From: Panopea generosa
Lineage: Eukaryota; Mollusca; Bivalvia; Adapedonta; Hiatellidae
Assembly (NCBI GenBank): GCA_029582155.1
Contig: CM055896.1
Span: forward strand, 25,635,184 to 25,699,183
Length of the DNA stretch: 64,000 nt
Reading direction: 5' to 3'
Shown here piece after piece: positions 4,791 through 60,900 of this stretch. Numbering within the stretch: the first letter of the stretch is position 1; the number at the start of each line of letters is the position of its first letter. The notes beneath the pieces were generated by a model. It saw only the letters and a program-made list of their open reading frames with translations, ran no database searches and was not told the origin of the DNA. A program made the translations under genes and the position numbers.

Positions 4791-5789
4791 TAGAGCTGAC
4801 AGACACACATACACTGACCCACCATTGTATTGACTATGTCAAGCTCTGACACCACAAGCAGGCTCAACAAAATACTTCCTTTGATAGCAGAACAGTTTGA
4901 AACTTGTGATCTAATTTATCAGTCAGATGAATAACACTGTCAACAGTATAACAAGGAATATAGCACAAAATCAACATTTGTATGACGACTTTAGAAAGAC
5001 TCACTTTCCCTTGCCTTCCAAAAATCAAAGCGGAAACAATATCTCACTAGCATTATCCCCAAGGGCAAAAATATGTAGCAGGGTTTTACCAACAAAGCAG
5101 GGTTAGACAGAACTTTTTGTCCACAGGACAATTTGTTTTTGTAAATTCACTTGTCCCTTGACAAACATTACTTTTCCCAATTATATTTTCATTACAATAA
5201 ACTAAATTAATAACCTAAATCTGTGGAAAAAATGCAGTATTTTTATTCTTCTACCCAACTAATAGAAGACTTCTCAAGCATGAAACATCTTGTTTTAAAT
5301 CATTCTAATCTTATGTAAAGAAAACTTGCAGATCAAACTGATTTAAAATCAATAAATAGTAATTTGGGTTTCAAACTTTACATGTCCAGGGGGCAACTAT
5401 AAACTGGAAAAAAATTACTTGTCCCTCTAGAAATCAGCACAATACAATGACAACAGGTCAACCTTTATTTTGTTACTCTGCAACATTTTTTACCTGTCCT
5501 CTGAAGAGTATAAAATCAACTTGCGCTTTGTCACAGGTGTATTTAATCCAGGGGTTACAATCCACTGACATGCACAATTGAAAAATATTCATGCACAAAT
5601 TTAATTGCATTGGGAAAGGAGACTTCGTTAAAACAATAACTGTAAAAGATATTTGAATCTGCATCTAATTATAGGGAAAATCAAATATTGAGAACCAGTC
5701 CATTCTCAGCTGTTTCAGTAAAAATTAAACCAATCCTTTCAATACAAAATCAGACTGAGATAACCTAGAATTCAAGCCTGGTTACTTAC
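4791..5789. other. ISWI intron 2 with repeat fragments
   Basis: At about 5098 a segment begins CAGGGTTAGACAGAACTTTT, resembling the termini of the nested element at 3001-3699, but no matching right end was found. TTGTCC-rich sequence follows to about 5435. The rest is unremarkable AT-rich intron. Confidence 0.4.
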
Positions 5790-5882
5790 AATCTTGGCAT
5801 CGTAGTCATCATCCTCTTCTTCAGGCGTATCAGCATTTTTACCTTTTGGTGGAGCCTTCAACAAAACAGATGGTCCTGGAGC
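5790..5882 (-). CDS. SMARCA5: ISWI chromatin remodeller, exon 2
   Basis: This 93-bp exon encodes residues 18-48 (31 codons). It begins APGPSVLLKAPPKGKN and ends with an acidic run, TPEEEDDDYDAKI. The acceptor ATCAAG and donor GTAAGT are both phase 0, so it joins exon 1 (ending DES) and exon 3 (starting ESDRGN) without a frame change. The acidic, low-complexity N-terminus ahead of the [12 protein letters not shown] block is the usual ISWI layout, and this part is poorly conserved between species. The assignment rests on splice phase and position rather than on sequence similarity of this exon alone. Confidence 0.85.
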
Positions 5883-6563
5883 CTTGATAAGTAAAAAAAA
5901 CATGACTATTTGAATTTCAATGTTCATTAATGTATCTCAGGTGTTAATAAAACCATTTATATTCTTATCCTCCCTTGGAGGATATCAATTATGATGGGGA
6001 ATGGAGTCAGTTTTTCCATGACTAGTATATTATGGTAAATTTTTACCACATGTATTTCGTTGAAACACAAGTTTCTTAGTTTTTTGTTTTCTTATGTAGA
6101 CATATATTTCCCCTTCATCTTGATGTAAATATTTCAAACCCAAAATAGTTTCCTTACTTTATTAGTAGAGAACAATTTAAAAGCAAAATGTGCTCGACAT
6201 TCTTTAATGATATTCATAAATATACATCAGTGAAACGTGACTTCAAAACAGAATTATTGACAGGTCACAGTTACTAACACATATAATTATGAACATGTAT
6301 GTAATTATAACAGTTGCAATAACTGTCAAAGATTCCATGTAAATACTATATTTTTCGGAAAATTATAATCGGATAACATTGGTAACTTTTCTTTTGCTCT
6401 GGAAGCAAAGTAAATAAAAAATTTGCTTCTAATTATGACTGGTGTCATTTTGTTTAACAACAAATACAACTGCATATGGCAACAAATAAGATAAGTTTTC
6501 CTATAATATCTTCACTGCTATGAAATTCACTTGCAAGATTTTGTTCATATAGGTGGATTAAAA
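5883..6563. other. ISWI intron 1, no feature recognised
   Basis: AT-rich intron sequence with no ORF with splice support, no TIR pair and no match to the other repeats in the window. Confidence 0.5.
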
Positions 6564-7596
6564 AACAAGAGGCCCAAGAGGGCCTGAGGACGCTCTAATG
6601 ACTCATAGTGGCCATAGCACTTTTTGAAATTCTACTATGCAATAGAAACATCGGGGCGGGGTCGTTTTTAACTCTAGGGACACCATTTGAACAAATCTAA
6701 CAGAACTATAGTTGGTCATCATTACTACATAACATTTTGAAAATCTGTTGGACCAATCATGAGAAGATTTTTTAAGTTTTGGACTATTTTTAGTAACAGT
6801 GACCATCTGAAATTTTAGATAAAAAAAAATCTTCGGTATAGTCTCCTATGCAATAGAAACATCCATGTGAAGTTTCAGTTTAATTAGCCTAGTGGTTTCA
6901 GAATAAATGGAAAAAAAATGGAGAGAATTTTTCTGTTTTCCCATACTATCCCTATGTAAAATTCTAAGTCCCCTTACAGTGTCCCTATAAATTTTAGCCA
7001 CTAAAATCTTATCTGCAATCAAACTCCTACACATAGCGATAATTTATGCAAAATATGAACAAATCTGACATACCGGTTCTTAAGAAAACGAATTTAGTAA
7101 TTCCTAATTTTTACCCTTTTGGGGCCCCTCCTGACCCCTTAAGACAGTGGAACCCAGTCATTTTTACAAATCTGAACCTCCTTCACCAAACAATGCTTCT
7201 GTGAAGATATAGGCAATATCATTTCCATTTTAAAAAATAAAAATAAAAAAATATTATAATGACACATGTCCCCTAATTGAACCCTCGGGGCAGGGTCATA
7301 TTTAACCCTAGGGACACCATTTGAACAAATCTAACCAAACTATAGTTGGTCATCATTACTACATAAAGATTTTTTAATTTTTGGACTTTTTTTAGTAACA
7401 GCGGCCTTCTTGAATTTCAGATCGAAAAAAAAAATATCTTCTGTATAGTCTTCTATACAATAGAAACACCCATGTGAAGTTTCAGTTAAATTGGCCTAGT
7501 GGTTTCAGAGAAAGTGCTAACAGACTGACAGACCACGGACGACAGACAACGCGCCATCGCATAAGCACTTCTGGCCTTTGGCCAGTAGAGCTAAAA
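6564..7596 (+). repeat. Dispersed repeat family A, copy 2 (complete ends)
   Basis: This is the most complete copy of the family. It starts AACAAGAGGCCCAAGAGGGC, followed by CTGAGGACGCTCTA, TGACTCATAGTGGCC and a module holding GGGTCGTTTTTAAC... and CCTTTTGGGGCCCC. It ends with GACAACGCGCCATCGCATAA, CTTCTGGCCTTTGGCCAGTA and GAGCTAAAAA. The CTGGCC/GGCCAG segment near the end can form a short hairpin. No TIR pair and no coding capacity, so the mode of spread is unknown. Confidence 0.85.
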
Positions 7597-7849
7597 AATG
7601 AAGCCTAAACATGACATAGGTGTCAAAAAATTAAACACTGAATATCCCTATTGATGTTTATTGCATTCTGTGGCTAACATCTTAAAATTTATTTACTCAT
7701 ATTGTCGGGATAAGTAAACATTGTGTGAATTTTTGTAGTACTTCATTTGGTTTTAAAGAACTTTTATGTCATGGTATACAATTTTTTAGAATTTAAAACC
7801 TCGAACAAAAGTACAAATTTGATTGAGACTGATGACAAATCCAAGCAAA

Positions 7850-9724: not shown

Positions 9725-10370
9725 ATTACCTATGCCAATGAATCTTCCAATGATTTTGCTTCCAGTCGAAGTCCAAATAAATAGGCTTTCATACTCATCT
9801 CCAGTATAGTCTGATGTCCCATCACACAGTGAAACTGATAAAGCTTGCAGTCTTGAATATATTTTCAGTTTTTCTGTGTTCAATTGAAGCGATGTTTCCC
9901 ATAAAGTCAGCAGCTGCCTTATCATTTATGTATGTGTTGCCAACATCTTTACCCTTACTTCTGTCCAGGGCACAGAAAACAGTGAAAGTTTTGAAAGACA
10001 AATTATGGGGGTTGCCTTAGCAGTCTCTTTTCGAGATGCTTGAATGTGACTCCTGGTGTTTGCATGCGGTGACGACTTCTAATTTAAAATTGACACCCAA
10101 TGACAAAATTGTTACCGATGTTCCCGTTTAGCTCGCACTATGAAACAAAACATTTTACCATTCTCAAACATTAACCAGTCCTGATCTTTCGTCCACTGCT
10201 TCTGGAATGTACGAACATGCTTGTGTTCGTATTGTCTTTTCTTGTCAGACGAATCTGTAACGCGTAACTTTTGTTATTTCCTTGCTTTGCACAAGTCGAC
10301 CATTTCAAGGTTGCCATCTTGTTTGATTTACGATAATTTACCATTCGGTAGTTTCCTGGCATCATTCATA
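9725..10370 (-). pseudogene. ZNF862-like transposase N-terminal region, frameshifted
   Basis: On the minus strand, going left from about 10325: MATLKWSTCAKQGNNKSYAL and so on; then, after frame changes, NNFVIGCQF near 10090; then FTVFCALDRSKGKDVGNTYI, NDKAAADF and ASFISFTV near 9830-9990; then, in another frame, DGTSDYTGDEYESLFIWTS and IIGRFIGIG to about 9729. The order FT-x-F-x-x-C-x-LD-x-x-KG-x-x-VG-x-TY-x-NDK followed by F-x-S-x-x-x-DG-x-x-D is the layout I know from ZNF862-like, hAT-related proteins (DUF4371-type region). At least two frame changes and a stop (10017) make this copy non-functional. The catalytic core and C-terminal dimerisation region are absent. Confidence 0.7.
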
Positions 10371-18473: not shown

Positions 18474-18552
<79 letters not shown>

Positions 18553-18566
18553 GATAATAATAATAT
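18474..18566 (-). repeat. AAT/GATAAT microsatellite, LINE 3' tail
   Basis: Runs of AAT (about 12 copies) followed by GATAAT repeats. On the minus strand this is an (ATT)n/(ATTATC)n tail lying immediately 3' of the LINE coding sequence, as in CR1/L2-type elements, which end in short tandem repeats and not poly(A). Confidence 0.8.
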
Positions 18567-18791
18567 CTTTATTTATAGAAGGTCACACATTATGGACATA
18601 ATACAATTGAATTCAAGGTACACATCATATTTTCAATATGGCCTTCTGCAACAATATTTGAAACATTACAATATAATATTACAAATTACAATGTATAAAT
18701 ACTTGTGACAAACACTCAATTTAGCAAAGCATGCAAATTAGCCTTTATATATTTGTACATTTATACTATTTTATTCAAACAATAACAAAAA

Positions 18792-19327
18792 TCATTTATT
18801 AGGTGATTGGAGAAGGTAATTTCTATATTGACATTTAAATGAGTGAATATTTGAAAGATGTCTTATAGATACTGGTATAGCATTCCATATTAGTGTACTA
18901 GTATAACCAAAGCTATTTTTTAAATAATTGGTGCAAGCCTTTTGAGTAACGAGATCTTTTCTATCAATAGATCGTAAGTTATATGATGTATTATTTGAAA
19001 ATATCAAAAGGTTTGATATATAAGGTGGTGCTTTAGTTTTAAAAGCTTTAAATACTAAAACAGCAGTGTGATAAAAACATCTTTTGGTAAATGGAAGTCA
19101 TTGCAATTTATTGAACATATCTTGAGAATTTGTTTTCAATGGATTATTTAGTATTATTCTCGCTGCTCTTTTCTGAGATTCAAATATTGTATTTTGTATA
19201 TGTTTACCTTTTCCCCAAACAATACAACAATAATCAAATTGTGACATTATGTAGGCATTGTAAAACAATACTTTCATATCATATGTTAAATAATATGATA
19301 TTCTTTTAAGAAGGGCTATTTTTTAGT
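18792..19327 (-). pseudogene. LINE ORF2 C-terminal region
   Basis: The part next to RT reads NAYIMSQFDYCCIVWGKGKH near 19255-19200, with QKRAARIILNN after it, the D-Y-C...W-G and Q-K-R-A-A-R signatures of CR1/Jockey-type ORF2. It ends with YNLRSIDRKDLV, SFGYTSTLIWNAIP and VSIRHLSNIHSFK (19007-18792), matching the usual LRS...F.Y.....WN.LP..IR pattern. Interrupted by at least one stop. Confidence 0.8.
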
Positions 19328-19951
19328 TTAATTTGGCACATATTTTAGTAAGCTGAGTTTTCCATTGTCTATATAAACACCTAATAATTTCTGAGAGGTA
19401 ACATTTTCTACAAACACATTGTTAATGATTAAATTTAGTTCCTTTTTATTTCTTAACTTGTATTTCGTAGCAATTACCATGCATTTTGTTTTTTCAGAAT
19501 GTAATGACATGTTATTAGTTGTACACCATCTGCTTATTGAATTTAATCTGTCCTGGAGTTGAATTTGTATTTCTAATAAATAATTTGATGTTTCACAAGT
19601 TGTGGTATCATCATCATCATAGAGATCAGTATTTCCAGTTTCAAAAATAAAAGCAATGTCATTCATATATAAAAGAAAAAGTAATGGTCCTAAGATACAC
19701 CCTTGTGGTATGCCAGATATTATTGGAAGCATATCTGATTTTAGATTTTTCACTCTATTTAATTGTTTTCTATTCGAGAGATAGACTTTAAACAGTTGAA
19801 CAGCTAATTTGGGAAAATGGCAAAGTTTCCATTTGTGAATAAATATATCATGATCAAGAAGATTGAAAGCTTTGAGTAAATTGAGAAATACAGCACCAAC
19901 ATAATTTCCTGAATCTACATCTTTAAGCCATGTGTCTGTGAGATGAGTCAA
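19328..19951 (-). pseudogene. LINE reverse transcriptase core
   Basis: The 207-codon frame has LLKAFNLLDHDIF (RT block with the catalytic Asp position changed: usual D-x-S-K-A-F-D), GIPQGCILGPLLFLLYMND and YDDDDTT in place of the usual YADDTT, then LNSISRWCTTNNMSLHSEKT and KLLGVYIDN. Substitution in the first catalytic aspartate region (LKAFN for SKAFD) also argues that it is inactive. Confidence 0.85.
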
Positions 19952-20153
19952 AGCAGTTTGGCAAGAATGATTTTTCCTAAATTCTGGTTGCGTATCATGA
20001 ATAACTTTATACTTTTTAAAATAGTCTTGTATCTGGTTTGCTATATATGTCGTTCAAATATTTTTGATATTGTCAGCAATATGGATATGGGACAGTAATT
20101 ATTAGGATTATTTCTATCTCCTCCCTTGTAAATGGGAATTATACATTCTTTCT

Positions 20154-20660
20154 TCAATGAATCTGAATATATATACATTGGTTTATTGATTTATTTATAA
20201 TTGATGCAAGTGCAGGAGTTATACAATCGCCACAGTATTTTAGGATTCTAGGTCCAATGTAATCCAGGCCTGTAGATTTATTTATGTTAAGTTTATCTAT
20301 AAGTTTTCGCACTTCGAATGGAGTTATTGGTTCAATTTTGAATTCGATATTACGTAATTTTGCATCAAGTTTACATTCTAATTCTGCAAATTTTTCTTTG
20401 ACAAAAGATGTTCTTATAATGATATCGGATATATTTACAAAAAGTTTATTTAATTTGTTCATTATATGTAGCTGTCCTGTAATATTTTGTGTGCTGGTCA
20501 TTAAGGTGTCTGGCATAAAAAACCCATGTTCATTTCCTTTACCTGTACTCGCAATACTTTTAACTTTTTTCTTTAAGTAACTTGGACTTTTATTATCTTT
20601 AATAGCATTGTTATAAAAATTATTTTTACTTTTCTTAATAAGTAATATTTTATTTTGCAT
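20154..20660 (-). pseudogene. LINE ORF2, linker and RT N-terminal part
   Basis: This frame holds ITPFEVRKLIDKLNINKSTG and LDYIGPRILKYCGDCITPAL, matching the V...I..L...KS.G.D.I....LK......P.L..I.N.S conserved start of RT in this LINE group. It is separated from the RT core by a frameshift near 20050-20154. Confidence 0.8.
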
Positions 20661-20933
20661 TTGTTTGTATTCACCAAACCTTTTGTTTTTTGTGTAATTT
20701 ATCCCTCATACTTATTGCTTCCTTAATCTCATTTGTAAACCAACCAAGTTGGGTGTCATATTTAACTCTTTTTTCTTTCATAGGAGCATGTATGCTTAGT
20801 AAGAAACAAATTGATTATAGAATATAACAGAGTTAGAGATTGGTTTGGATTATCAATATATTCAATAATATAGTTTCACTGAATTTCTTGAAACATCTGT
20901 ACTTAATTGTGTCATGGCAATTTCCTTTCGCTA

Positions 20934-21425
20934 TTATACTACCCATGCACCGTGTAAAATAACAGGATAGTGATTGCTAATGCTGTATAAGGGCAATATA
21001 ACCTCTGATATTAAATCAGGCATATTTGTATATATATGATCTATAATATTAGAGCTGGATTTGGATATTCTAGTTGGTGATTTAATTATTTGTGTAAGAC
21101 CAAATTTCACAATAGTGTCATTCCATCTTTTTATACTATAGTTTTCAACATTAGTATCCAATAAACATTTGATATTGAAATCCCCAAGCATATAGATTTC
21201 TAGATCTAAGTGATCGACTTTATCTAATATTGATTCAAAAGACACATTCATGATTGAATTTCTTTTGGCGCTCTATATATGAAGTGTAGTATACGGTTTA
21301 CTATTTGGATATTTTATTCCTATACATATTGATTCTATGTCATCGCACTCTTAATCGCACTGTCTTCGATACGGAATATTAGACTTTAAATATGCTAAAA
21401 CACCTCCACCAATTAGATTGTAATA
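20934..21425 (-). pseudogene. LINE endonuclease (EEP fold) remnant
   Basis: The frame has YMLGDFNIKCLLDTN (the GDFN catalytic motif), ITQIIKSPTRI-like text (here LTQIIKSPTRIS), then SSNIIDHIYTNMPD and ISNHYPVIL (usual SDH replaced by SNH). The upstream GGGVLAYLK and KYPNSKPYTTLHI segments are in a shifted frame with stops. The N-terminal catalytic residues are lost. Confidence 0.8.
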
Positions 21426-34442: not shown

Positions 34443-35866
34443 AACAAGAGGCCCAAGAGGGCCTGAGGACGCTCTACTGACTCATAGTGGCCATACCACT
34501 TTTTGAAATTCGACTATGCAATAGAAACATCGGGGCGGGGTCATTTTTAACTGTAGGGACACCATTTGAACAAATCTAACAAAACTATAGTTGGTCAACA
34601 TTACTACATAAACATTTTGAAAATCTGTTGTGCTGTTCATAAGAAGAAGATTTTTTAAGTTTTGGACTATTTTTAGTAATGAACAAATCTGATATACCGG
34701 TTCTTAAGAAAACGAATTTAGTAATTCCCAATTTGTACCCTTTTGGGGCCCCTCCTGACCCCTTAAGACAGTGGAACCCAGTCATTATTACAAATCTTAA
34801 CCTCCTTCACCAACCAATGCTTCTGTGAAGATATAGGCAAAATCATTTCCATTTTAAAAAAAAAAAATAAAAAAATATTTTAATGACATGCGTCCTCTAA
34901 TTGAACCCTCGGGGTGGGGTCATATTTAACTCTAGGGACACCATTTGAACAAATCTAACAAAACTATAGTTGGTCATCATTACTACATAAACATTTTGAA
35001 AATCTGTTGGGCTGTTCATGAGAAGAAGATTTTTTAAGTTTTGGACTATTTTTAGTAACGGTTGCCATCTTGAATTTCAGATTGAAAAAAAAATCTCTGG
35101 TATAGTCTCCTATGCAATAGAAACACCCATGTGAAGTTTCAGTTTAACTGGCCTAGTGGTTTCAGAACAGATGAAAGAAAAAGAGAATATAGTATCCCTA
35201 CGTTAAATTCTAAGTCCCCTTACAGGGCCCCTATAAATTTTAGCCCCTAAATTCTTATCTGCAATCAAACCCCTACACATAGGGATAATTTATGCAAAAT
35301 ATGAACATATCTGACATAAGAAAACGAATTTAGTAATTCCCAATTTTTACCCTTTTGGGGCCCCTACTGACCCCTTAAGACAGTGGAACCCAGTCATTTT
35401 TACAAATCTGAACCTCCTTCACCAAACAATGCTTCTGTGAAGAAAAAGGCAAAATCATTTCCATTTAAAAAAAAAAAATATATATATATTGACATGTGTC
35501 CCATAATTGAACCCTCGGGGCGGGGTCATATTTAACCCTAAGGACACCATATAAACAAACCTAACAAAACTATAGTTGGTCATCATTTCTACATAAACAT
35601 TTTGAAAATCTGTTTGGCCATTCATGAGAAGAAGATTTTTTAAGTTTTGGACTATTTTTAGTAATGGCGGGCATCTTGAATTTCAGATAAAAAAAAAAAT
35701 GTTCTGTAAAGTCTCCTATGCAATAGAAACACCTATGTGAAGTTTCAGTTTTATTGGCCTAGTGGTTTCAGAGAAAGTGCTGCTAACAGACGGCAGACAA
35801 CAGACGACGGACGACAGACAACGCGCCATCGCATAAACATTTCTGGCCAGTAGAGCTAAAAACAAG
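34443..35866 (+). repeat. Dispersed repeat family A, copy 5
   Basis: It has complete ends: AACAAGAGGCCCAAGAGGGC at the start and ACGCGCCATCGCATAAACAT, TTCTGGCCAGTAGAGCTAAA at the end. It is longer than 6564-7596 because the CCTCGGGG-to-CCATTT module is present about three times (CCTCGGGG or equivalent near 34530, 34908 and 35513). Confidence 0.85.
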
Positions 35867-40193: not shown

Positions 40194-41215
40194 GAACAAG
40201 AGGCCTAAGAGGGCCTGAGGACGCTCTACTGACACATGAACCCTCGGGGTGGGGTCATTTTTAACCCTAGGGACACCATTTGAACAAATCTAACAATACT
40301 ATAGTTGGTCATCATTACTACATAAACATTTTGAAAATCTGTTGGGCCGTTCATGAGAAGAAGATTTTTTAAGTTTTGGACTATTTTTAGTAATAGCAGC
40401 CATCTTGAATTTCAGATCGAAAAAAAAAAAATCTTCTGTAAAGTCTCCTATGCAACAGAAACATGCATGTGAAGTTTCAGTTTAATTGGTCAAGTGGTTT
40501 CAGAATAGATGAAAGAAAAAGAGAATTTTCTGTTTTCCCATAGTATCCCTATGTAAAATTCTAAGTCCCCTTACAGAGCCCCTATAAAGTTGAGCTCCTT
40601 AATTCTTATCTGCAATCAAACCCCTACACATAGGGATAATTTATACCAAATATGAACAAATCTGACATACTGGTTGTCAAGAAAACGATTTAAGTAATTC
40701 CCAATTTTTACCCTTTTGGGGCCCCTCCTGACCCCTTAAGACAGTGAAACCCATTCAGTTTTACAAATCTGAACCTCCTTCACCAAACAATGCTTCTGTG
40801 AAGATATAGGCTAAATCAGTTTCCATTTAAAAAAAAAAAAAAAAAATATATTATAATATTATAATGACATGTGTCCCCTAATTGAACCCTCGGGGCGGGG
40901 TCATATTTAACTCTAGCGACACCATTTGAACAAATCTAACAATACTATAGTTGGTCATCATTACTACATAAACATTTTGAAAATCTGTTGGGCTGTTCAT
41001 GAGGAAGATTTTTTAAGTTTTGGACTATTTTTAGTAACAGCGGCCATATTGAATTTCGAATTCGAAAAAAAAAATCTTCTGTATTTTCTCCTATGCAACA
41101 GAAATATGCATGTGAAGTTTCAGTTTAATTGGCCTAGTGGTTTCAGAGAAAGTACTGCTTACAGACGACAGATGACGGACGACAGACAACACGCCATCAG
41201 CATAAGCACATCTTC
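40194..41215 (+). repeat. Dispersed repeat family A, copy 6
   Basis: It starts AGAACAAGAGGCCTAAGAGG and ends GGACGACAGACAACACGCCA, TCAGCATAAGCACATC. All main blocks of 6564-7596 are present. A frame at 40926-41270 is a by-product. Confidence 0.85.
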
Positions 41216-42890: not shown

Positions 42891-44835
42891 CAGGGTTTCC
42901 CCAGGAAGTTTTGAAGGCATGTTGCTTAAAATGGGAGGGGTGGGTACGGGAGGTGTCCCCTCCTGTGTTGATTTTTTTTACATTTGACCCTCATGAATGA
43001 TGCATTTTTAAGTATGTGTTTCTATTTAGAATATTACTGCAATAAAATTGAATACAAAGAAATTTAAAGTTTTTTTTAATGGATGACTAGCAAGGAATTA
43101 TATAGAGAAGGAAAGGCAACTGATTGAGATTGTGTGAACGCCTGTGTATTTACACAATATCTCGCAATACCTCGTTTTCAATTATCTTAACTTCCATTCA
43201 AAATTCAAAAAATTCAAAATTCTTGCATTGCAGAGAGATATTTTCACCAAAACAATACCATTCCCAGAAATTTGTGTTAAAAATTGCTGTAACACTTTTG
43301 ATTACAAAATATCTCTACTGCAGTTAAAATAACAACAAGTTAATTATGATAAATTTTCCTTCAAGCTTCAATATCTAGCCAAATAATTAATTCTTTGTGT
43401 GCTATTTCATAAACATTTAATCTGGAGATATATCCTGCATAAACGGTACCACAGTAACCAAATTTTGACCGTCACCACATCTGGGTATTTCTAATGAACG
43501 AAAACGGTTTAATCTTTGTTAAAAATTGAAACTGTTTTAAGTGGGGATTTTATTTGTTGAAATAAGATGCTGAGAAACCGGGTGTATCCAACAAACTATT
43601 ACAGTGCTCCAAGAATAGGATAGCCCGATGCCCGGGGCTTGTCAAATCTGGATCCGGGCATGTGCCTTTTTCAAAAATCGAACAAGCTAGTTTTCACAAT
43701 AAACAGGTCTGCAAATATCTCTATTCGAAACGACACAGGTCACTGCTGTTTAAAGACAGTAACTAATCAGTATAAACAATTGACCCCTGTGGTGTTTATC
43801 ATACCACACGTCCGATAATGCGACTTTGGTAAACCTCTCATGCATATTCATTTATCTATTTTAATTCCTCTAATGTGATTGGTGGATAGCTTTGAATATA
43901 AAGTTATCTATTTTTAATAACCGCTCTGATTGGTCGGATATCTACGCCCAAGGTAAACATGTTTCTTACCACCTACCCGAGCAAAGACTAAAAAAAAAAT
44001 AAAAGACGACGTAATTCGCGGGTGTTTCTCAAATTCTCCATTATGAAGAGTATAAAATTACCTCCCTTTGCTAAAATGGTAACGATTTCAAAAAATCTGG
44101 TAATGTTTTTGCAGATAATTTGCGATCGATCACGTTATGTAAAATGTCAGCGTTAGGTTCTGTTAATTTTATAAATATTTCGTAGATTTACAATAATTGG
44201 AACTGTATGTATATAAATTTTCTTCTGTGAAAACGTGAGAGTTGATATTGAAATTGAGTTTACGGTTAAGAAAAATGTGGGTGGGGTATTATAGTAATAA
44301 ACATTGCTTTTTGGTTGTGTAGTTTCAGCATGTATTTTTTTGGCATTTTTTTTTTAAATATTTGAAATATAGTTGACTAGTTGTACTTTCTAGATATTTG
44401 AAGGCTATCATAGACTGCATTCATTTATCATATTGCCAAGTTCTCTTGGATAGATTGAATAGCTTTGTAGGCTTGGCATTGCCATTATTGTATGTTGTGA
44501 CAGCAATAATTAGAAAACATGAGAAAGATATTTAAAATAATGTTTTAAATATACTCCTGCTCCCACACTGCCGCTGAATAGACAGAACAGAAATGATAGT
44601 CAATAAAGAACAATTCGTTGGCTCAGCGCAAAACCCCAGTAACTGCATTTTTCTTACTTTTCAGGAGAGACAAAAAACTGATTATATCAATTACTAGTTA
44701 AAAGACTTAAGTTTAATCTTATTATTAAGCATATTCATTAAAAACAGTTCTTCACATTTGTATCTTGTATAAAAAAAAATATTAACAAAGTATTAAAAGT
44801 AATCTGAAAAATTAAGTTGGAAATTTGCGTTGAAA

Positions 44836-44965
44836 AACTCGGCGCAAAACTCCAGTTACAGCACTTACTGATTTTTTGCTCTGAAATATATTTGTGCAAA
44901 ACTCCAGTAAGTGCATTTACTGGTTTTTTGCTCTTAAATTTATTTGTGCAAAACATCAGTATTTA
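44836..44965. repeat. Subterminal GCAAAACTCCAGTAA inverted motifs
   Basis: GCAAAACTCCAGTAAGTGCA and TTTACTGGTTTTTTGC (44892-44930) form a hairpin. Related motifs occur at 44836-44875 and 44946-44965, and in reverse at 49640-49700. They repeat the inner part of the TIR (CGCAAAACCCCAGTAACTG), so they may be binding sites for the mobilising protein. Confidence 0.5.
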
Positions 44966-46101
44966 CTCTAAAAGGTATATTGTACAATTAAAATGGCCAA
45001 AGATTTACTAAACAGTACAACTAGTATAATAACATTAGTTTAATGGAAAAAAGAGTTTATTTGACTTTTACAATAGACAATATTTATTCAAACACTATTT
45101 TATTCAAAAGTAATTCTGGCCTCTGGCCCATAATACAAATATACATAGTAAACATGCACATAACAACTGACTTGCTATATTACTAATAGTAACTGCTTCT
45201 TATAAAATTAATTTTGTTTTTTTATTAGTTTTTAAATTAAAAAATCAAATAATATTAAAATGAAACATTTCTTTTCTTACACTGATATTTATTAAGCTTC
45301 ACAATAGGCATGAATAGAAAGTTCTGTGGAATTATAAACTGTTTTAAAACCATAAACAGAATGATTCATATTTCTCTTTTATAAACACTATTTCTGTACT
45401 TCATATCGCAATTAAAAAAAAAATTCTTAACATTATTTGAGCAGTATCTATCAATTATAATCTTTAGTAATTTAAAAAAAAAAATGCAAAAAATTTCATC
45501 TATTAGCAGTGACTTTTATCTAAAAATGTGTTGCTTTGAGTCATCGTATTACAAATAACGTGTCGTTTTTCATTAATTAAATAACAATAGAAGTCATTCA
45601 ACATTAATAGTAACTATAACTATATTTGCCAGTTATGCTAAAAATGAATAATAAATTAACGGACAAGTTGGCTGCTTTGTTACCATTAATAAACAAACAG
45701 TATTTCTTTGAAACCTTCCTTTTACTATTGGTCTTATTTAGAATTGGTTGTTCTAGAATTGTTCGAGACATATAGTCTCTTTGGCGATCAATATTACCAA
45801 GGTCCCAGAAATCATTGAATAAAGTTTCCCTTTGGTTTTCTGTAATATGAAGTTGACATTTCTTTTACAAAGCAATCAACAACCTTTTTTAACTGATTTA
45901 GCATATTTATTCACCCCATAATGACTTGTATAGCTGAGACCTCTGTTTCTTTTATTTTTTATAATATTTCTTTTCCAGTTAGATTCCTGTTTCTTTTTTT
46001 CTCCCCCTACTTTGATTTCCTACATTTAAGACATTTCCCATTTGACATTCATTAGAGGGGCTATTGAGTTCAGAGGTGTGAGGGATTAAATTCCTAACGG
46101 G

Positions 46102-49100
46102 TCATGCAAAGTAAATCAATGGTCTGTCATCATAATCATCAACTGTATTCTCACTCATTTCTATATTACAACTCTTATCACAAGTACCATTTATTTTACT
46201 ATTCATCTCAGTAGAATTCCTTCTATTACTAACATTTTTACCTGACTTGCCACCACTACCGCTATTCATATCACTACCATAGCCTCTATCACCAATCTTA
46301 GTTCCATCCCCTCTTTCACCACACTTACCCCAACTACCACTATTCCTCTCACTATCATCGCCTCTTATCACTAGACTCACCAACACTACCACTTTTCATC
46401 TCACTACCATCGCCTCTATCACCAATCTTAGTTCCATCCCCTCTTTCACCACACTTATCCCAACTACCACTATTCCTCTCACTATCATCGCCTCTTATCA
46501 CTAGACTCACCAACACTACCACTTTTCATCTCACTACCATCGCCTCTATCACTAATCTTACTACTATCCCTTCTATCACCAGACTTACCACCACTACCAC
46601 TATTCATCTAACTACCATCGCCTCTATCACCAGACTTACCACCACTTTCACTATTCATCTTACTACCATCGCATCTATCACCAGACTTACCACCACTACC
46701 ACTATTCATCTTACTACCATTGCCTCTATCACCAGACTTACCACCACTATTACTATTCATCTTACTACCATCGCCTCTATCACCATACTTACCACCACTA
46801 TCACTATTCATCTTACTACCATCGTCTCTATCACCAGACTACTAACACGACCATTATTCATTTCATTGCAATCGATTCTATCATCAGACTTACCACCACT
46901 ATCACTATTCATCTCATTACCATCCACTCTTTCACCAGACTTACCACCACTACCACTATAATAATTCATCTCACTATCATCACCTCTATCACCAATCTCA
47001 CTACCATCCATTCTTTCACTAGATTTACCACCACAACCACTAGAATAATTCATCTCACTACCATCGCCTCAATCCCCAATGTCATTACCATCCCTTGTAT
47101 CACCAGACTTACAATCACTACCACTATAATAATTCATCTCACTACCATCCATTCTTTCACCAGACTTATCACCACTACCACTATAATAATTCATCTCACT
47201 ATCATCACCTCTATCACCAATCTCACTATCATCCACTGTATCACCAGACTTACAATCACTACCACTATAATAATTCATCTCATTACCATCCATTCTTTCA
47301 CCAGACTTGTCACCACTACCACTATAATAATTCATCTCACTATCATCACCTCTATCACTAATCTCACTACCATCCACTGTATCACCAGACTTACAAACAC
47401 TACCACTATAATAATTCATCTCACTACCATCCATTCTTTCACCAGACTTACCACCACTACCACTATAATAATTCATCTCACTATCATCGCCTCTATCACC
47501 AATCTCACTACCATCCATTTTTTCACTAGATTTACCACCACTACCACTATAATAATTCATCTCACTATCATCGCCTCTATCACCAATCTCACTACCATCC
47601 ATTCTTTCACCAGACTTGTCACCACTACCACTATAATAGTTCATCTCACTATCATCGCCTCAATCCCCAATCTCACTACCATCCCCTGTATCACCAGACT
47701 TGTCACAACTATCGCTATAAAAGTTCATCTCACTATCATCGTCTCTATCACCAATCTCACTACCATCCCCTGTATCACCAGACTTGTCACCACTACCACT
47801 ATAATAATTTATCTCCCTACCATTACCTCTATCACCAATCTCACTACCATCCCCTCTATCACCAGACTTACAAACACTACCACTATAATAATTCATCTCA
47901 CTACCATCACCTCTATCACTAATCTCACTACCATCCTCTTTATCACCAGACTTGTCACCACTACCACTTTAATAATTCATTTCACTACCATCGCCTCAAT
48001 CCCCAATCTCACTACCATCCCCTGTATCACCAGACTTGTCACAACTATCGCTATAAAAGTTCATCTCACTATCATCGTCTCTATCACCAATCTCACTACC
48101 ATCCCCTGTATCACCAGACTTGTCACCACTACCACTATAATAATTTATCTCCCTACCATTACCTCTATCACCAATCTCACTACCATCCCCTCTATCACCA
48201 GACTTGCAAACACTACCACTATAATAATTCATCTCACTACCATCGCCTCTATCACTAATCTCACTGCCATCCTCTCTATCACCAGACTTACCAACACTAC
48301 CACTATAATAATTCATCTCACTATCATCATATCTATCACTAATCTCACTGCCATCCCCTCTATCAACAGACTAACCAACACTACAACTATAATAATTCAT
48401 CTTGCTACCATCGCCTCTATCACCAATCTCTCTACCATCCCCTCTATCACCAGACTTACCAACACTACCACTATAATAATTCATCTCACTATCATCGCCT
48501 CTATCACTAATCTCACTGCCATCCCCTCTATCACCAGACTTACCAACACTACCACTTTAATAATTCATCTCACTATCATCGCCTCTATCCCCAATCTCAC
48601 TACCATCCTCTCTATCACCAGACTTACCACCACTACCACTATAATAATTCATCTCACTACAATTGCCTCTACCATCAATCTCACTACCATCCCCTCTATT
48701 ACCAGACTGACCAACACTACCACTATAATAATTCATCTCACTACAATTGCCTCTATCACTAATCTCACTGCCATCCTCTCTATCACCAGACTTACCAACA
48801 CTACCACTTTAATAATTCATCTCACTATCATCGCCTCTATCCCCAATCTCACTACCATCCTCTCTATCACCAGACTTACCACCACTACCACTATAATAAT
48901 TCATCTCACTACAATTGCCTCTACCATCAATCTCACTACCATCCCCTCTATTACCAGACTGACCAACACTACCACTATAATAATTCATCTCACTACAATT
49001 GCCTCTATCATCAATCTCACTACCATCCCCTCTATCACCAGACTGACCAACACTACCACTATAATAATTCATCTCACTATCATCACCTCTATCCCCAATC

Positions 49101-49543
49101 TCACTACCATCCTCTCTATCACCAGACTTACCACCACTACCACTATAATAATTCATCTCACTACAATTGCCTCTACCATCAATCTCACTACCATCCCCTC
49201 TATTACCAGACTGACCAACACTACCACTATAATAATTCATCTCACTACAATTGCCTCTATCACCAATCTCTCTACCATCCTCTCTATCACCAGACTTACC
49301 ACCACTACCACTGTAATAATTAATATCACTATCATCGCCTCTATCACTAATCTCACTACCATCCTCTCTATCACCAGACTTACCAACACTACCACTACAA
49401 TAATTCATCTCACTATCATCGCCTCTATCACTAATCTCACTACCATCCTCTATTTCAGAAGTAGAAAAATCTGTTATATTTATATCTATAGAATTTAAAA
49501 ACATGCTGCTGTCATTCAGATCCAGATATTTTTTTTGTTTTCT
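46102..49543 (-). pseudogene. Ser/Gly/Asp-rich minisatellite protein, interrupted
   Basis: The acceptor CTCTCCCTAG at 49542-49551 leads into KQKKYLDLNDSSMFLNSIDI then NITDFSTSEIEDGSE. About 40 units follow of a 28-residue motif, e.g. MNYYSGSGGKSGERMDGSE then IGDRGDDSE. A shorter 17-residue unit (MNSDSGGKYGDRGDGSK) is used in 46560-46850. The unique end is NVSNRRNSTEMNSKINGTCD, then DDYDDRPLIYFA and a stop at 46102. From 49561 to about 46808 one frame is kept, interrupted by point-mutation stops (AGA to TGA; TAT to TAA); two frameshifts follow near 46808 and between 46392 and 46608. No signal peptide is visible in this exon. Function unknown. Confidence 0.6.
46135..49460. repeat. 84-bp minisatellite array, about 3.3 kb
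   Basis: The plus-strand unit holds CTATCACCAGACTTACCACC, ACTACCACTATAATAATTCA, TCTCACTATCATCGCCTCTA and TCACCAATCTCACTACCATC. Units are multiples of 3. Higher-order blocks recur: 47660-47966 and 47996-48240 are near copies, as are the stretches around 48545 and 48808. Large arrays like this may be collapsed or mis-sized in an assembly. Confidence 0.9.
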
Positions 49544-51601
49544 AGGGAGAGGGAGTGTCAATAAAAAATTATAGTGCAGGAATTTATAAAATCAACGATA
49601 ATACTGGCTTTTTGCATTATTGATTTTTTGTATTGTACTTTAAAAACTTTGTGCAAAAACTCAGTAAGTGCAGTTACTGGGGTTTTGCGCTGAGAAAAAT
49701 CATGAATGCAGTTACTGGATTATGCTATTTTTTGAATTAAAACATTAAAAAAAAAATTTCAACCACCATATTTTGATAGGAGGTGTAACTTACCTTTATA
49801 TACCAAATTATTGAAAAAAATCATTTTGGGATAAATGTCAGTTACTGGGGTTTTGCGCCGAGCCAACGAATTGATTGATTGATTGATTGAATATTTAGCA
49901 TCTTTTTTAAGCTAATAAAGAACAAAGATTAAATACAACATACTGATAGAGACATAGTCAGTTTTCCCGAAATTCTCTCACTTCTCCCAGTCTTATTCAA
50001 ACTCTAAAACTTGTGATTTAGACATGCATAATGTTATGGGGAGCTTACCCTACATAAAATGAATACATTTAAGTCTCTGTTTACATATTTCATATTATAC
50101 CACAAGGTGTATTGGTAATAAAAATCTGGGCATGTGAACCGTTGATGAGGGCAAGTTATTTTTCAGCCAGGGCAAGTAGATTTTTTCAAGTCTACTTGCC
50201 CTGGGCTAGTCCCAAATTTTTTTTTCTTGGAGCACTGCATTAATGTGCATTTCAAATATATGTATCTATCCTATATAAGAATATTATTGCCATAAAAAAA
50301 TATAGTAAACGAGTGTTAATAAATGGACACTTTTTCATATTTCAAAGTTAATAAAATTGAGAAGTTTGCATTTTTAATGTTTGATTCTGTAATTTTCATT
50401 AGGTGTCAGTGTATTTCCAAATGAATATAAATTTTATAAAAGGAAACATTAATAGTTAAGTCTTGAACATCCCTAATAAACCGATGCACCGATTTTTTAG
50501 GATCCAACTTTTGAAGGTGCCGACTTTTAGACCAGGTTTCTCAAATTTGTTAACATCCAGTAGGCAACATCCAGGTGTTTTTTCTTCAATTTATGTACAA
50601 AATAAACCATTTTAAGTGGGGATTTTATTCAAGTTTTGTTGAAATAAGATGCTGAGAAAACGCTTCATGATTTCATTGTTTTGCTTACTTGCATAAAGCC
50701 CTTACTATACACTGCGATCTATTTCTAATTGTCTTGATCTGAGAATGGTCGTGACACACTTTATTAAGTGTTTTGTTTCGATTGATTGCATAAATACTAC
50801 ATAGACTTCACATGATTGGGAGGTTAATGAATCAAATGAAAGGTAATGCAGACACCTTGGTCAGTAGTCGATATTAAATTTTGTGAAAAACAATCTCGGA
50901 TGAAGAAATTTCACAGGACACCGCATTCAATATTGGGGCGGATTAACCTTCAAATTACTCATTCTGATTGGCTTAACTGTACACACCTCCAGTTCACACT
51001 TGCTAGTGATTGACAAGTCTGTGAAATAGGTTAATTGATCACGGGGTCACTTGTTTAATTACTGATGGGCTTGTGTAATGGGATTATCTAACGGTAGTCG
51101 CAACGGGTGGGAAGGCATGTCTGGCTGCTTGAGGGATGTCGCTAATCAACCAAATCTTTTGAAGGGATGTTGCATGCGACATGCGTTATGACTCTGGGGG
51201 AAACCCTGCTGATGTTTCAGACTAGCCATGCAATTTCATGTTGTTCTTATTTTTTTTACATAAAGGCAGAGCTACATATAAGAGGCGTTTAGGCGTAAAA
51301 ACAAATAAATATTGCATAAAAACGTTTGAACTTTGAAACAGGGCATAAAAAAATGCTTTGCAATTAAAAACAGGGAGTTATAAAACAAATTGCAAATTCC
51401 GACGTACATTGTTTTGATGGATAACGCTGTTCGGTAATTTTTTACCTCAACACCGCCCGGTCCCGTAATATTTAGTACTTGTGATATTCACAAGTGTCGC
51501 GGTTACCTCCCTTTTCATAAGAGGTTTGTTAAAGTCAAAAGTAGATATAATCAGTTAACTCCTGTTGTATTGAAAACAGCCGAAATTCGGCACGTCTGAA
51601 A

Positions 51602-55662: not shown

Positions 55663-56915
55663 CAGTGCTACAAGAATAGGATAGCCCGATGCCCGGGGCT
55701 TGTCAAATCTGAATCTGGGCATGTGCCTTTTTCAAAGTTATTGACCCCCGCGATGTTTATCACACCACATGCCCGATATTGCGACTTTGGAAAACCTCTC
55801 ATGCATATTCAATTATCTATTTTTATTCCTCTAATGTGATTGGTGGATAGCTTTGAATATAATCTATTTTTAATAACCGGATATCTACGACCAAGGTACA
55901 AGTTTCTTACCACGCACCCAAGCAAAGATAAGAAATAGACGATGACACAATTCGCGGGTTTACTCAAATGCTCCATTATGAAGAGCATAAAATTATCTCC
56001 CTATGCCACTTTTGGTAACAATTTCTAAAATCTGATTATGTTTTTTAAGATAATTCGCGATTGATCGCATTATGTATAATGCAAGCGTTAGGCTCTGGTA
56101 ATTTTATAAATATTTCATAGTTTAACAATAATTGGAACTGTATGTGTATAAAAATTCTACTGTGAAAACATGAAAGTTGATATTTAAATCGAGTTTACGG
56201 TAAAGAAAAATGTGGTTGGGGTATTATAGTAATACATTTATTGCTTTTTGATTGCGTAGTTTCAGCGTATACTTTTCTTTGGCATGATTTAAATATAGTA
56301 TTGAAAACAACAATTAAGATCAATTATGAGGTTTTTTTTAGTATTTGAAATATAGTTGCACTTTCTAAATATTTGAAGACTATCACAGACTGCATTTATT
56401 TATCAATATTGCCAAGTTCTTTTGGATAGATTGAATAGCTCTGTAGGCTTGACATTGCCATTATTGTATGTTAAGACAGCAATAATTAGAAAAGAAGAGA
56501 AAGATATTTAAAATGAAGTTTTAAATAAACTCTTGCTCCCACACTGCCACAGAGTTGACAGAACAGAAGTGATAGTCAATAAAGAACAAAGATTAAATAC
56601 AACATAATAAGTTGGGCATACTGGTAGACGTAGTCAGTTCTCCCTATATTTCTTTCACTTCTACCGGTCTTATTTTTTTAATTTCAAACTTGTGATTTAG
56701 ACATGCATAATATTAAGGGGAGCTAACCCTACATAAAAAAATACATTAAGTCTATGTTTACACATTTCATATTATACCGCAAGGTGTATTGGTAATAAAA
56801 ATCTGGGCATGTGAACCGTTGATTAGGGCAAGTTATTTTTCAGCCAGGGCAAGTAAATTTTTTTTAACCTACTTGCCCAGGGCTAGTCCCCAATTTTCTT
56901 TTTCTTGGCGCACTG
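55663..56915. mobile_element. Middle-type TIR element, copy 2 (uninterrupted)
   Basis: It begins CAGTGCTACAAGAATAGG and ends TTCTTGGCGCACTG and matches 43602-50237 apart from the inner insertion, so it serves as the empty-site reference. GAAACC (55657-55662) and AAAACC (56916-56921) flank it, a possible 6-bp duplication with one mismatch. It is inserted into the CATGACAAAGTTACAG repeat, whose remainder continues at 56916-57065. Non-coding. Confidence 0.75.
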
Positions 56916-57310: not shown

Positions 57311-60300
57311 ACTAGAAATGCGTCCATGGGACACAGATGCCCATGCTTTGTAACTACATTGTAGATATCAATAAAGCCAAATATCAAGTTTCATCAAGTT
57401 AGGTCCATCAATAAAGATTTTAGAGGTTGGAAGCTGTCAGGCAATCAAAATCCAGAGCACCTAATTAATATGTGTTAATTCCATCCTTTTTTTCTTCAAA
57501 ATCGGACCATAAATAAAGACTTGAGAGGTCGGAAACTACCAGCCAAGCAGAGCCCAAACACCTAATTAATATGCACAGCTCGAATTTAACACTCGCAAAT
57601 TCGCAAAATGCCAGTGGAAATGTGTTTGGTTTTTACATACGCTCACAAATTTTTGCGAGTGCAAAAAGTGAAATTGAAATGACGGCGGTTTTCATTTCTT
57701 CAACTTTCAGTTTCGTTCTGCTGTAAACATGCATCAATTGATGATGTTTTACACTACACATCCATTGATGACGTTTTTTTACACAGTGCACATACTCGCT
57801 AGACTGGTTTTACTGATTTTAATCACGTGGTGTTATTTCATCAACATATTTTGAAACACAATCCAATTAACCATGACTCAGCAAATTATCTGTGAAAAAA
57901 AACCCCAGATATTTATGTATATAAAATTTCTATAAAGAATGGTTGATCAAAATTGCGTGTAAAGTTGATATTTTGCAAGCTGAAATATCTTGTACTGGCA
58001 AAAATTTGCGAGTGCAAAAAATATTCTAGCCCAGATATGTAGGGATTTTGAAGGAAATCAAACTTGAGCTGTAGTTTATCACCATACATCTTTCTATCAA
58101 ATATGAATGAAATTCATCCAATCCTTCAGGCATAGTGCCACCATTGCAAAAGGGAAGTGCTTCCGTGGGGTAGTCGCATAATGGCAGGTTGTAAATAATC
58201 CTCAATTCTTCTTCTTTAAAAATGCATTTTCCTATTTTTAATGCTCATTTTTTTATTTGAATGGCATTATTGATGTATTTTGAACATTTTGATAGCATTG
58301 TCATGTTTGAATTGTGAATTTAGAAAAAAAAAATGATGCTTGGAAATTGGGGTATGAATTCATGATTTCGGAAGTCTACTTTCACTTTGTCACCAGTGTA
58401 CACACTGAGCAGAAAAAAAATCTCTTATATGACACATGACCCCTACTTTTCTCATCATATTTTGATAGTGCAGAGGTTGACAAACAGTAAAATGTAGGTT
58501 TCACTTCTTTCATTTGGGACCCTCTATGAATGACAAGCCTTCAAACTTTTATTATTTACTATAGAATTAAGAACAAAAATCAATGGTGGGGTTACACCTA
58601 TAAGAGAGACTGGAGTGAAATGGGGGTGATTTACCAAAATGTTAATTGTAGGTAAAATAACCTCTTTTCTACACTCTCATAGTATTAAATGACAAATTGG
58701 AGACATTTGCTTCATAAAAAAACACATTTTGGCAAGTGTATGCCTCAAATAAAGCATATATGTGCATATTTACATTGAAATTTCATGAAAAATCACAAAA
58801 TTTTGAAGATTTTTTATTTTGGATGATTTAAATGTGCAATTTTTAGCATGTACATTGTATTGAATAATGTATTTTGGTAAGATAATGTCTTCAGTGCATC
58901 ATGAGACTGTTTTGGTGTAAAAATTTTAATGGAATTAGGTAAAAAAAAATTTTTTGGGTAAAATTAGTCAAACACATCAAAATTGCATGTCGGTCAACAT
59001 CTCGCGCCTGTATATAATGATCATGTAAAAAGTGGTATTTTGACAAAAGTTTCAGTATTTAATGCCTGCAACTTGGTAGTATTACTTCAAATTGGTAGTA
59101 CTTAGCAAAAATGAGGTAATTATGAAATTAAAAAAAAAAGAGTTTCCTTATAGGCATAGTGCCACCATTGCAAAAGGGAAGTGCTTCCGTGGGGTAGTCC
59201 CATAATGGCGGTTGTAAATAATCCTCAATTCTTCTTCTTTAAAAATGCATTTTCCTATTTTTAATGCTCATTTTTTTATTTGAATGGCATTATTGATGTA
59301 TTTTGAACATTTTGATAGCATTGTCATGTTTGAATTGTGAATTTAGAAAAAAAAAATGATGCTTGGAAATTGGGGTATGAATTCATGATTTCGGAAGTCT
59401 ACTTTCACTTTGTCACCAGTGTACACACTGAGCAGAAAAAAAATCTCTTATATGACACATGACCCCTAATTTTCTCATCATATTTTGATAGTGCAGAGGT
59501 TGACAAACAGTAAAATGTAGGTTTCACTTCTTTCATTTGGGACCCTCTATGAATGACAAGCCTTCAAACTTTTATTATTTACTATAGAATAAAGAACAAA
59601 AATCAATGGTGGGGTTACACCTATAAGAGAGACTTGAGTGAAATGGGGGTGATTTACCAAAATGTTAATTGTAGGTAAAATAACCTCTTTTCTACACTCT
59701 CATAGTATTAAATGACAAATTGGAGACATTTGCTTCATAAAAAAACACATTTTGGCAAGTGTATGCCTCAAATAAAGCATATATGTGCATATTTACATTG
59801 AAATTTCATGAAAAATCACAAAATTTTGAAGATTTTTTATTTTGGATGATTTAAATGTGCAATTTTTAGCATGTACATTGTATTGAATAATGTATTTTGG
59901 TAAGATAATGTCTTCAGTGTATCATGAGACTGTTTTGGTGTAAAAAATTAATGGAATTAGGTTAAAAAAAATTTTTTTGGGTAAAATTAGTCAAACACAT
60001 CAAAATTGCATGTCGGTCAACATCTCGCGCCTGTATATAATGATCATGTAAAAAGTGGTATTTTGACAAAAGTTTCAGTATTTAATGCCTGCAACTTGGT
60101 AGTATTACTTCAAATTGGTAGTACTTGGCAAAAATGAGGTAATTATGAAATTAAAAAAAAAAGAGTTTCCTTATAGGCATAGTGCCACCATTGCAAAAGG
60201 GAAGTGCTTCCGTGGGGTAGTCGCATAATGGCAGTTGTAAATAATCCTCAATTCTTCTTCTTTAAAAATGCATTTTCCTATTTTTAATGCTCATTTTTTT

Positions 60301-60900
60301 ATTTGAATGGCATTATTGATGTATTTTGAACATTTTGATAGCATTGTCATGTTTGAATTGTGAATTTAGAAAAAAAAAATGATGCTTGGAAATTGGGGTA
60401 TGAATTCATGATTTCGGAAGTCTACTTTCACTTTGTCACCAGTGTACACACTGAGCAGAAAAAAAATCTCTTATATGACACATGACCCCTACTTTTCTCA
60501 TCATATTTTGATAGTGCAGAGGTTGACAAACAGTAAAATGTAGGTTTCACTTCTTTCATTTGGGACCCTCTATGAATGACAAGCCTTCAAACTTTTATTA
60601 TTTACTATAGAATAAAGAACAAAAATCAATGGTGGGGTTACACCTTCAAGAGATATCGAGCGGAAACCAATTTCTTGACATTTGTCAGTAATTAAAAGTC
60701 CAAAAAGGGGGTAAAACTCCATCAAAAATCATTAGATCGGAACAAAATGTGAACTTGACCTGTATTACCTGCATGTAAAGTCACACACCAAATTTGGTTT
60801 AAATCTATTCTTAAAAACTAAAGATATGTCGGAAACCATTTTCGTACAGACAGCTGTGATACTATAGTGCACCCCACATTGAAAATGGCGGGGGTATAAT
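57311..60900 (+). repeat. Long dispersed repeat, GTCCATGGGACACAG start to GGGGGTATAAT end
   Basis: It opens with AACTAGAAATGCGTCCATGG and GACACAGATGCCC, and closes with AAACCATTTTCGTACAGACA, CCCCACATTGAAAATGGCGG and GGGTATAAT. Embedded are pieces with repeated ACCTAATTAATATG and, from 58129, the 1.02-kb tandem array. Not coding. Confidence 0.65.
58129..60650 (+). repeat. 1.02-kb tandem repeat, about 2.5 near-identical copies
   Basis: Units start GGCATAGTGCCACCATTGCA at about 58131, 59154 and 60177 (periods about 1.02 kb). The first two copies are nearly identical by eye (CGTGGGGTAGTCGCATAATG; GACAAACAGTAAAATGTAGG; CGGTCAACATCTCGCGCCTG), differing by a few substitutions and single-base changes in A/T runs. 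The third stops near 60650. No open frame spans a unit. Confidence 0.9.

Follow-up and report, generated by a model that had tools for sequence, protein, structure and literature searches.

The DNA transposons named Sola were reportedly the subject of a report by Bao et al. in 2009, and Tetris and other transposons with internal tandem repeats are said to carry a tandem array, as does the element described here, whose array differs in deriving from the coding sequence of a transposase linker. The element, 5253 bp long, lies in a 64,000-nucleotide stretch of Panopea generosa DNA (the window; contig CM055896.1, G000:C3:25635184-25699183 of a source genome searched as 1,474,161,289 bases in 39 contigs). 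The passages on Sola in PMC10741241 describe elements with DDD transposases, 4-bp target duplications and terminal inverted repeats (TIRs), mostly 2-9 kb long and distributed from bacteria to animals, and curated Sola1 elements in bivalve genomes have a mean length of 5445 bp in the part of PMC10294476 that deals with them. Tegument-like deubiquitinases, with a Cys and Asp-x-His triad, are found mostly in Helitrons according to the relevant sections of PMC9741609, which also record cnidarian fusions of such an enzyme to several transposon-associated domains and propose that the deubiquitinases of herpesviruses were probably taken from a Helitron-type element. The window element very probably derives, by internal deletion, from a cut-and-paste transposon of the DUF7869 type; itself non-autonomous, it would be mobilised by a transposase to which a predicted deubiquitinase is linked.

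An annotation made from the sequence alone, the original prediction, had placed an inserted inverted-repeat element at 44614-49913, with a single mismatch between its ends and with subterminal copies of the end motif. Insertion, ends and subterminal copies were all borne out, but the transposon itself runs from 44616 to 49868, limits given by the ends common to all 34 copies read at both ends and by a TIR pattern search. The left TIR, CGTTGGCTCAGCGCAAAACCCCAGTAACTG, occupies 44616-44645 on the plus strand and the right TIR 49839-49868 on the minus strand; they are 30 bp long with one mismatch, and with the palindromic CAATT included 34 of 35 bp agree. Immediately outside them stand the two copies of a 4-bp target duplication, AATT (44612-44615 and 49869-49872, plus strand), in the target CAATTG. 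Inverted copies of the TIR core were found at three subterminal sites, namely a near-palindromic one at 44842-44879 (plus strand), which is a probable transposase binding site, a second at 44896-44931 (plus strand) and one near the right end at 49653-49690 (minus strand). With up to three mismatches allowed, five occurrences of the core were counted in the window, where 0.00 are expected.

A genome-wide search with the TIR pattern gave 142 matches compared with none for a control pattern, so that the element belongs to a family and is not a one-off. The original prediction had advised collecting copies by their 300-bp ends, and the left 300 bp used as a query returned 132 candidates in the source genome, 40 of which were scored and were 97-100% identical. 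Twenty of these were fetched at 10 kb each, and in 19 the right end was reached. These 19 and the window copy share the ends CGTTGGCTC...GAGCCAACG, with at most two mismatches within the outer 20 bases, and all 20 have a perfect 4-bp duplication; between different copies, left and right 4-mers coincide in 94 of 380 pairings, a consequence of the high frequency of ATAT. Fetching 40 single ends further yielded both ends of 13 more copies and the right end of L042, while 13 ends (6 left, 7 right) without a partner in the fetched set do not enter the count of duplications. The target duplication is thus perfect in 34/34 copies read at both ends, representing 32 distinct sites after two duplicates were dropped. 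Element length ranges from 3258 to 6351 bp in 20 copies, with 6371 bp in the coding copy described below and about 9.5 kb in one further copy, at G000:C12:64626829-64636338, in which the minisatellite has grown to about 7.5 kb. The family is young: over the left 1.6 kb, 21 copies diverge by 2.1% in the median and by 3.6% at most. Scans of IMG/VR for the TIR, relic and DxCxGQN motif, and of bacterial genomes for the TIR, found no relative.

Insertion sites follow a palindrome, taYANNTRta, over the 32 distinct sites. YANNTR is present at 29 of them against 2.4% of window positions and CANNTG at 15 against 0.5%, an enrichment that is only indicative, because the copies were picked by similarity of their left ends and some of the count may come from AT-rich repeats. 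A strong signal is given by the A and T that are fixed in the target, each found at 31/32 sites.

The original prediction had also suggested looking for longer copies that encode a transposase, and such a copy exists. PF25273 (DUF7869) gave 135 matches in the source genome from the 150 of 224 candidates that were scored, and one of these (C13:8232355-8232795) lies inside a 1360-codon open reading frame (G000:C13:8229013-8233092; L093:2614-6693) of L093, a TIR-bounded copy of 6371 bp at C13:8227880-8234250 that has the same ends as the window element. Both ends of L093 are also among the genome-wide TIR pattern matches, and its 4-bp duplication, ATAT, lies at L093 1477-1480 and 7852-7855. In its protein PF04843 (Herpes_teg_N) comes first; a Ser/Gly/Asp repeat linker follows, then the domain of which the window keeps a relic, and last PF25273. 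The PF04843 match at residues 21-167 scored 34.1 bits (E 2.7e-8) with the whole protein and 38.3 bits (E 1.4e-9) with the N-terminal piece alone, the cut-off being 25, and the PF25273 match at residues 1115-1261 scored 56 bits (E 5.2e-15) against a curated cut-off of 26. The linker, in which 445 residues were counted, contains 106 Gly and 99 Ser and has a 51-bp period. Another DUF7869 match, C5:55144968-55145384, lies, by position alone, between perfect TIRs at C5:55140942 and 55146820.

A divergent protein of 1248 codons (L094, G000:C18; L094:362-4105) has the same architecture as that of L093, the identity between the two being 42% for the transposase and 38% for the protease part; its linker consists of unrelated Asn/Asp/Val repeats, and matching TIRs were not found in the stretch read. 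Both proteins keep the Cys and Asp-x-His of the predicted deubiquitinase (QC at 35-36 and D-S-H at 161-163 in L093, QC and D-P-H in L094). Four aspartates are invariant in the catalytic domain of L093, L094 and nine bacterial proteins, a count from which the fragments L007 and L011 were excluded, and three of the four are taken as the probable D-D-D triad of a catalytic site. A search of PDB sequences with the protease domain gave no matches, the sole NCBIfam match, to a collagen-like adhesin, was weak and fell well short of the cut-off, and the best Foldseek result (E 0.021) was a CRISPR-associated transposon assembly.

Alignment with L093 shows what the window element has lost. Missing from it are L093rc 1103-2591, a stretch that takes in the final third of the gene, and L093rc 4481-6071. 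The first junction, at 45670-45676, joins L093rc 1102 to 2592 with the loss of about 1.5 kb including the DUF7869 catalytic part, and the second, at 49517-49521, joins 4480 to 6072 with the loss of about 1.6 kb including the gene start and deubiquitinase domain. The window copy is therefore assigned to DUF7869 through L093, being itself without that region; Pfam gave nothing useful on the open reading frames of the window, and a profile built from the N-terminal regions of bacterial DUF7869 proteins failed to find the relic (about rank 38, E 22). What remains of the transposase N-terminal domain, on the minus strand downstream of the minisatellite array, is relic A (45879-46019), 89% identical over 36 residues to residues 793-828 of the L093 protein, and relic B (45604-45864), 89% identical over 66 residues to residues 834-899. 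The two are separated by a frameshift and a stop, and never share one open frame in any of 21 copies (the window copy and the 20 fetched); 16 of the 21 have the same stop after KKGC and the remainder are broken otherwise.

The array itself (46240-49457, minus strand) is the expanded Ser/Gly/Asp linker of the transposase, with stops. Its period is mostly 84 bp, of which 30 copies lie at 46911-49448, and about 51 bp at the left end. The original prediction was right that the only coding content lies in this Ser/Gly/Asp repeat region and its flank, but took the array for a stand-alone minisatellite gene carried instead of a transposase. It could be supposed, accordingly, that the minisatellite is a captured cargo gene with a function of its own, such as a secreted repeat protein, and the minus strand does show Ser/Gly/Asp codons in open stretches of up to 260 codons. 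The counterpart of the array stands in frame within the transposase gene of L093, however, its place is taken by an unrelated repeat linker in L094, and stops occur within the window array. The distance between the blocks to the left and right of it varies from 1368 bp (L037) to 7465 bp (L042) and is a multiple of three in only 9 of the 19 copies measured (L042 and L040 left out, the latter being without the right block), so that the derivatives are without sign of coding constraint. A cargo gene is thus very improbable, if the best of the alternatives considered.

A second alternative arises from the surroundings of the element, which entered a high-copy repeat (left part 43779-44613, plus strand; right part 49914-50237; paralogue 55740-56915). 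The 12-bp sequence AATAAAGAACAA is present at 44602-44613 and again at 49914-49925 (plus strand), and between the right TIR and its second copy stands a 43-bp piece of the surrounding repeat (49871-49913, minus strand), composed of (TTGA)n and TTTAGCATCTTTTTTAAGCT and lying outside the transposon. The original prediction correctly recorded both the (TTGA)n plus TTTAGC tail and the flanking repeat of 9-12 bp, but assigned both to the element, taking the TIRs as a sign of DNA transposition and the duplication and tail as closer to target-primed reverse transcription. A single unit with TIRs, tetranucleotide tail and 12-bp duplication would fit the window taken alone, where the 12-bp repeat flanks the entire insert and the paralogue at 56578 is without both parts. 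The rest of the family speaks against it. The tail is absent from all 20 fetched copies, the twentieth being L042, and indeed from all 33 copies other than the window's that were read at both ends (for L042 and the 13 later copies the first 10 flanking bases were read); they end at the TIR, and of 40 right ends scored among 520 candidates only that of the window matches beyond position 394 of 426, so that none of the other 39 continues into the tail. The element's own duplication is the perfect AATT inside.

In three other copies of the surrounding repeat (L034 at about 9925-9980, L089 and L092) the (TTGA)n and a short inverted repeat lie between the two 12-bp direct repeats with no transposon between, and the tail, whole or minus its first few bases, is joined to the right flank in 39 other scored copies (1522 candidates). 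An exact 9-base probe gave no match in L088, L090 and L091, the left side of which falls outside the comparison. The absence of the tail elsewhere and its uninterrupted copies indicate that the 43-bp piece is older and that the transposon entered later, and it is L034, L089 and L092 that display the pre-insertion state. The site at 56585, earlier read as an empty site, is not that state because both tail and transposon are missing there; 56578-56589 is a single AATAAAGAACAA in a paralogous repeat copy, 81% and 85% identical on its two sides. The transposon entered CAATTG where the left 12-bp repeat meets the 43-bp piece, duplicating AATT, and its coincidence of place with that junction is accounted for by target preference. 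As the long duplication and the tetranucleotide tail lie outside the transposon, there is no hybrid transposition here, and that reading is refuted by the uninterrupted tail copies. Refuted, too, is a one-off rearrangement that is not a mobile element, which has nothing beyond the odd architecture in its favour and is contradicted by the 142 TIR pattern matches and the 34/34 target duplications.

The 43-bp piece could represent the 3' end of a minus-strand retroelement that lacks its 5' part, and it may have been either gained or lost between its 12-bp repeats. No second copy of the tail core in the window rose above shuffled scores. At 18500-21272 (minus strand) lies a non-long-terminal-repeat (non-LTR) retrotransposon that shows reverse transcriptase motifs and ends in a long, ATT-rich 3' tail, and this in-window long interspersed nuclear element (18.5-21 kb) was rejected as the source of the tail, which differs from its own. 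Among other repeats in the window are a unit of about 1 kb in tandem at 58128-60653, with copies 99% identical, and a dispersed family of about 1 kb, 81-87% identical, at 526-1562, 6641-7597, 34768-35862 and 40237-41213.

The cut-and-paste reading can be put together as follows. The full element encodes a DUF7869 transposase with an N-terminal herpesvirus-tegument-like deubiquitinase domain and a repeat linker between them. Transposase from coding copies would attach to the 30-bp ends and probably also to the subterminal copies, excise the element and insert it at YANNTR, best CANNTG, with a 4-bp stagger that duplicates ANNT; in the window this would have happened at the CAATTG where the older 43-bp piece meets its flank. 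Once the two deletions had removed its catalytic and deubiquitinase parts, the derivative would have been multiplied in trans, and slippage in the tandem repeats or unequal exchange may account for the changes in length of its linker, freed from coding constraint. The deubiquitinase may serve to protect the transposase.

Among described systems the family is, by description, most like Sola. It shares with Sola a probable DDD transposase, the 4-bp target duplication, the TIRs, a similar length and a distribution over bacteria and animals, and differs in that the Sola passages of PMC10741241 mention neither a deubiquitinase domain nor a repeat linker, both of which are present in L093; Sola is thus a candidate placement, to which the family was not assigned. 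Membership of MULE/Mutator, for which the same source gives a target duplication of 7-12 bp, was ruled out by the 4-bp duplication, and membership of the non-LTR retrotransposons by the absence of the tail from the 33 other copies and 39 other scored right ends. VTD Helitrons/Helentrons resemble L093 in encoding a tegument-like deubiquitinase with Cys and Asp-x-His, but are rolling-circle elements with a Rep/helicase protein in the sections of PMC9741609 that treat them, whereas L093 is a TIR element with a DUF7869 transposase.

Bacterial PF25273 proteins (L001, L005 and others) share with L093 a catalytic domain with DNCxGQNKN and GHTxxxxD, and their elements are likewise bounded by TIRs with CAAAAC near the end. 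They differ in that the seven longest frames, of 635-668 aa, are without a repeat linker, the two scanned with Pfam have no PF04843, and their N-terminal region is too diverged for a profile test. The motif search behind this comparison gave 18 loci in bacterial genomes, of which 11 were kept and 2 run through Pfam; L004, L006, L008, L012, L014, L015 and L017 had short chance frames only and were dropped. In the DUF7869 elements on bacterial contigs L005, L001, L010, L013 and L018 the TIRs are some 40 bp long, except that those of L013 measure 61 bp, and L013 has a further partial inverted TIR copy, like the subterminal repeats of the window element. Phage and plasmid collections scanned with a bacterial DUF7869 protein yielded no relative.

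In the one open-access library searched, no literature was found on DUF7869 or on Herpes_teg_N with a transposon, and none of the papers listed described a fusion of a deubiquitinase to a DUF7869 transposase. The parts are known; the novelty lies in two divergent proteins of the source genome, each of which unites a predicted deubiquitinase with a cut-and-paste transposase. On balance it seems somewhat favoured that there is an animal DUF7869 lineage with a general architecture of deubiquitinase, fast-changing minisatellite linker and transposase, in which the protease protects the transposase from degradation by the host. In place of a spurious hybrid mechanism there now stand a transposon with complete ends and a sharply defined palindromic target, a coding relative with an open frame, and a family of non-autonomous substrates. 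If true, the fusion would add to the Helitrons a second kind of transposon that carries the protease family which herpesviruses are thought to have tapped, and a herpesvirus-like deubiquitinase in a cut-and-paste transposase would bear both on the origin of that family and on why mobile elements repeatedly acquire deubiquitinases. It also appears that a coding minisatellite can outgrow its dead gene, a route from transposon to tandem repeat.

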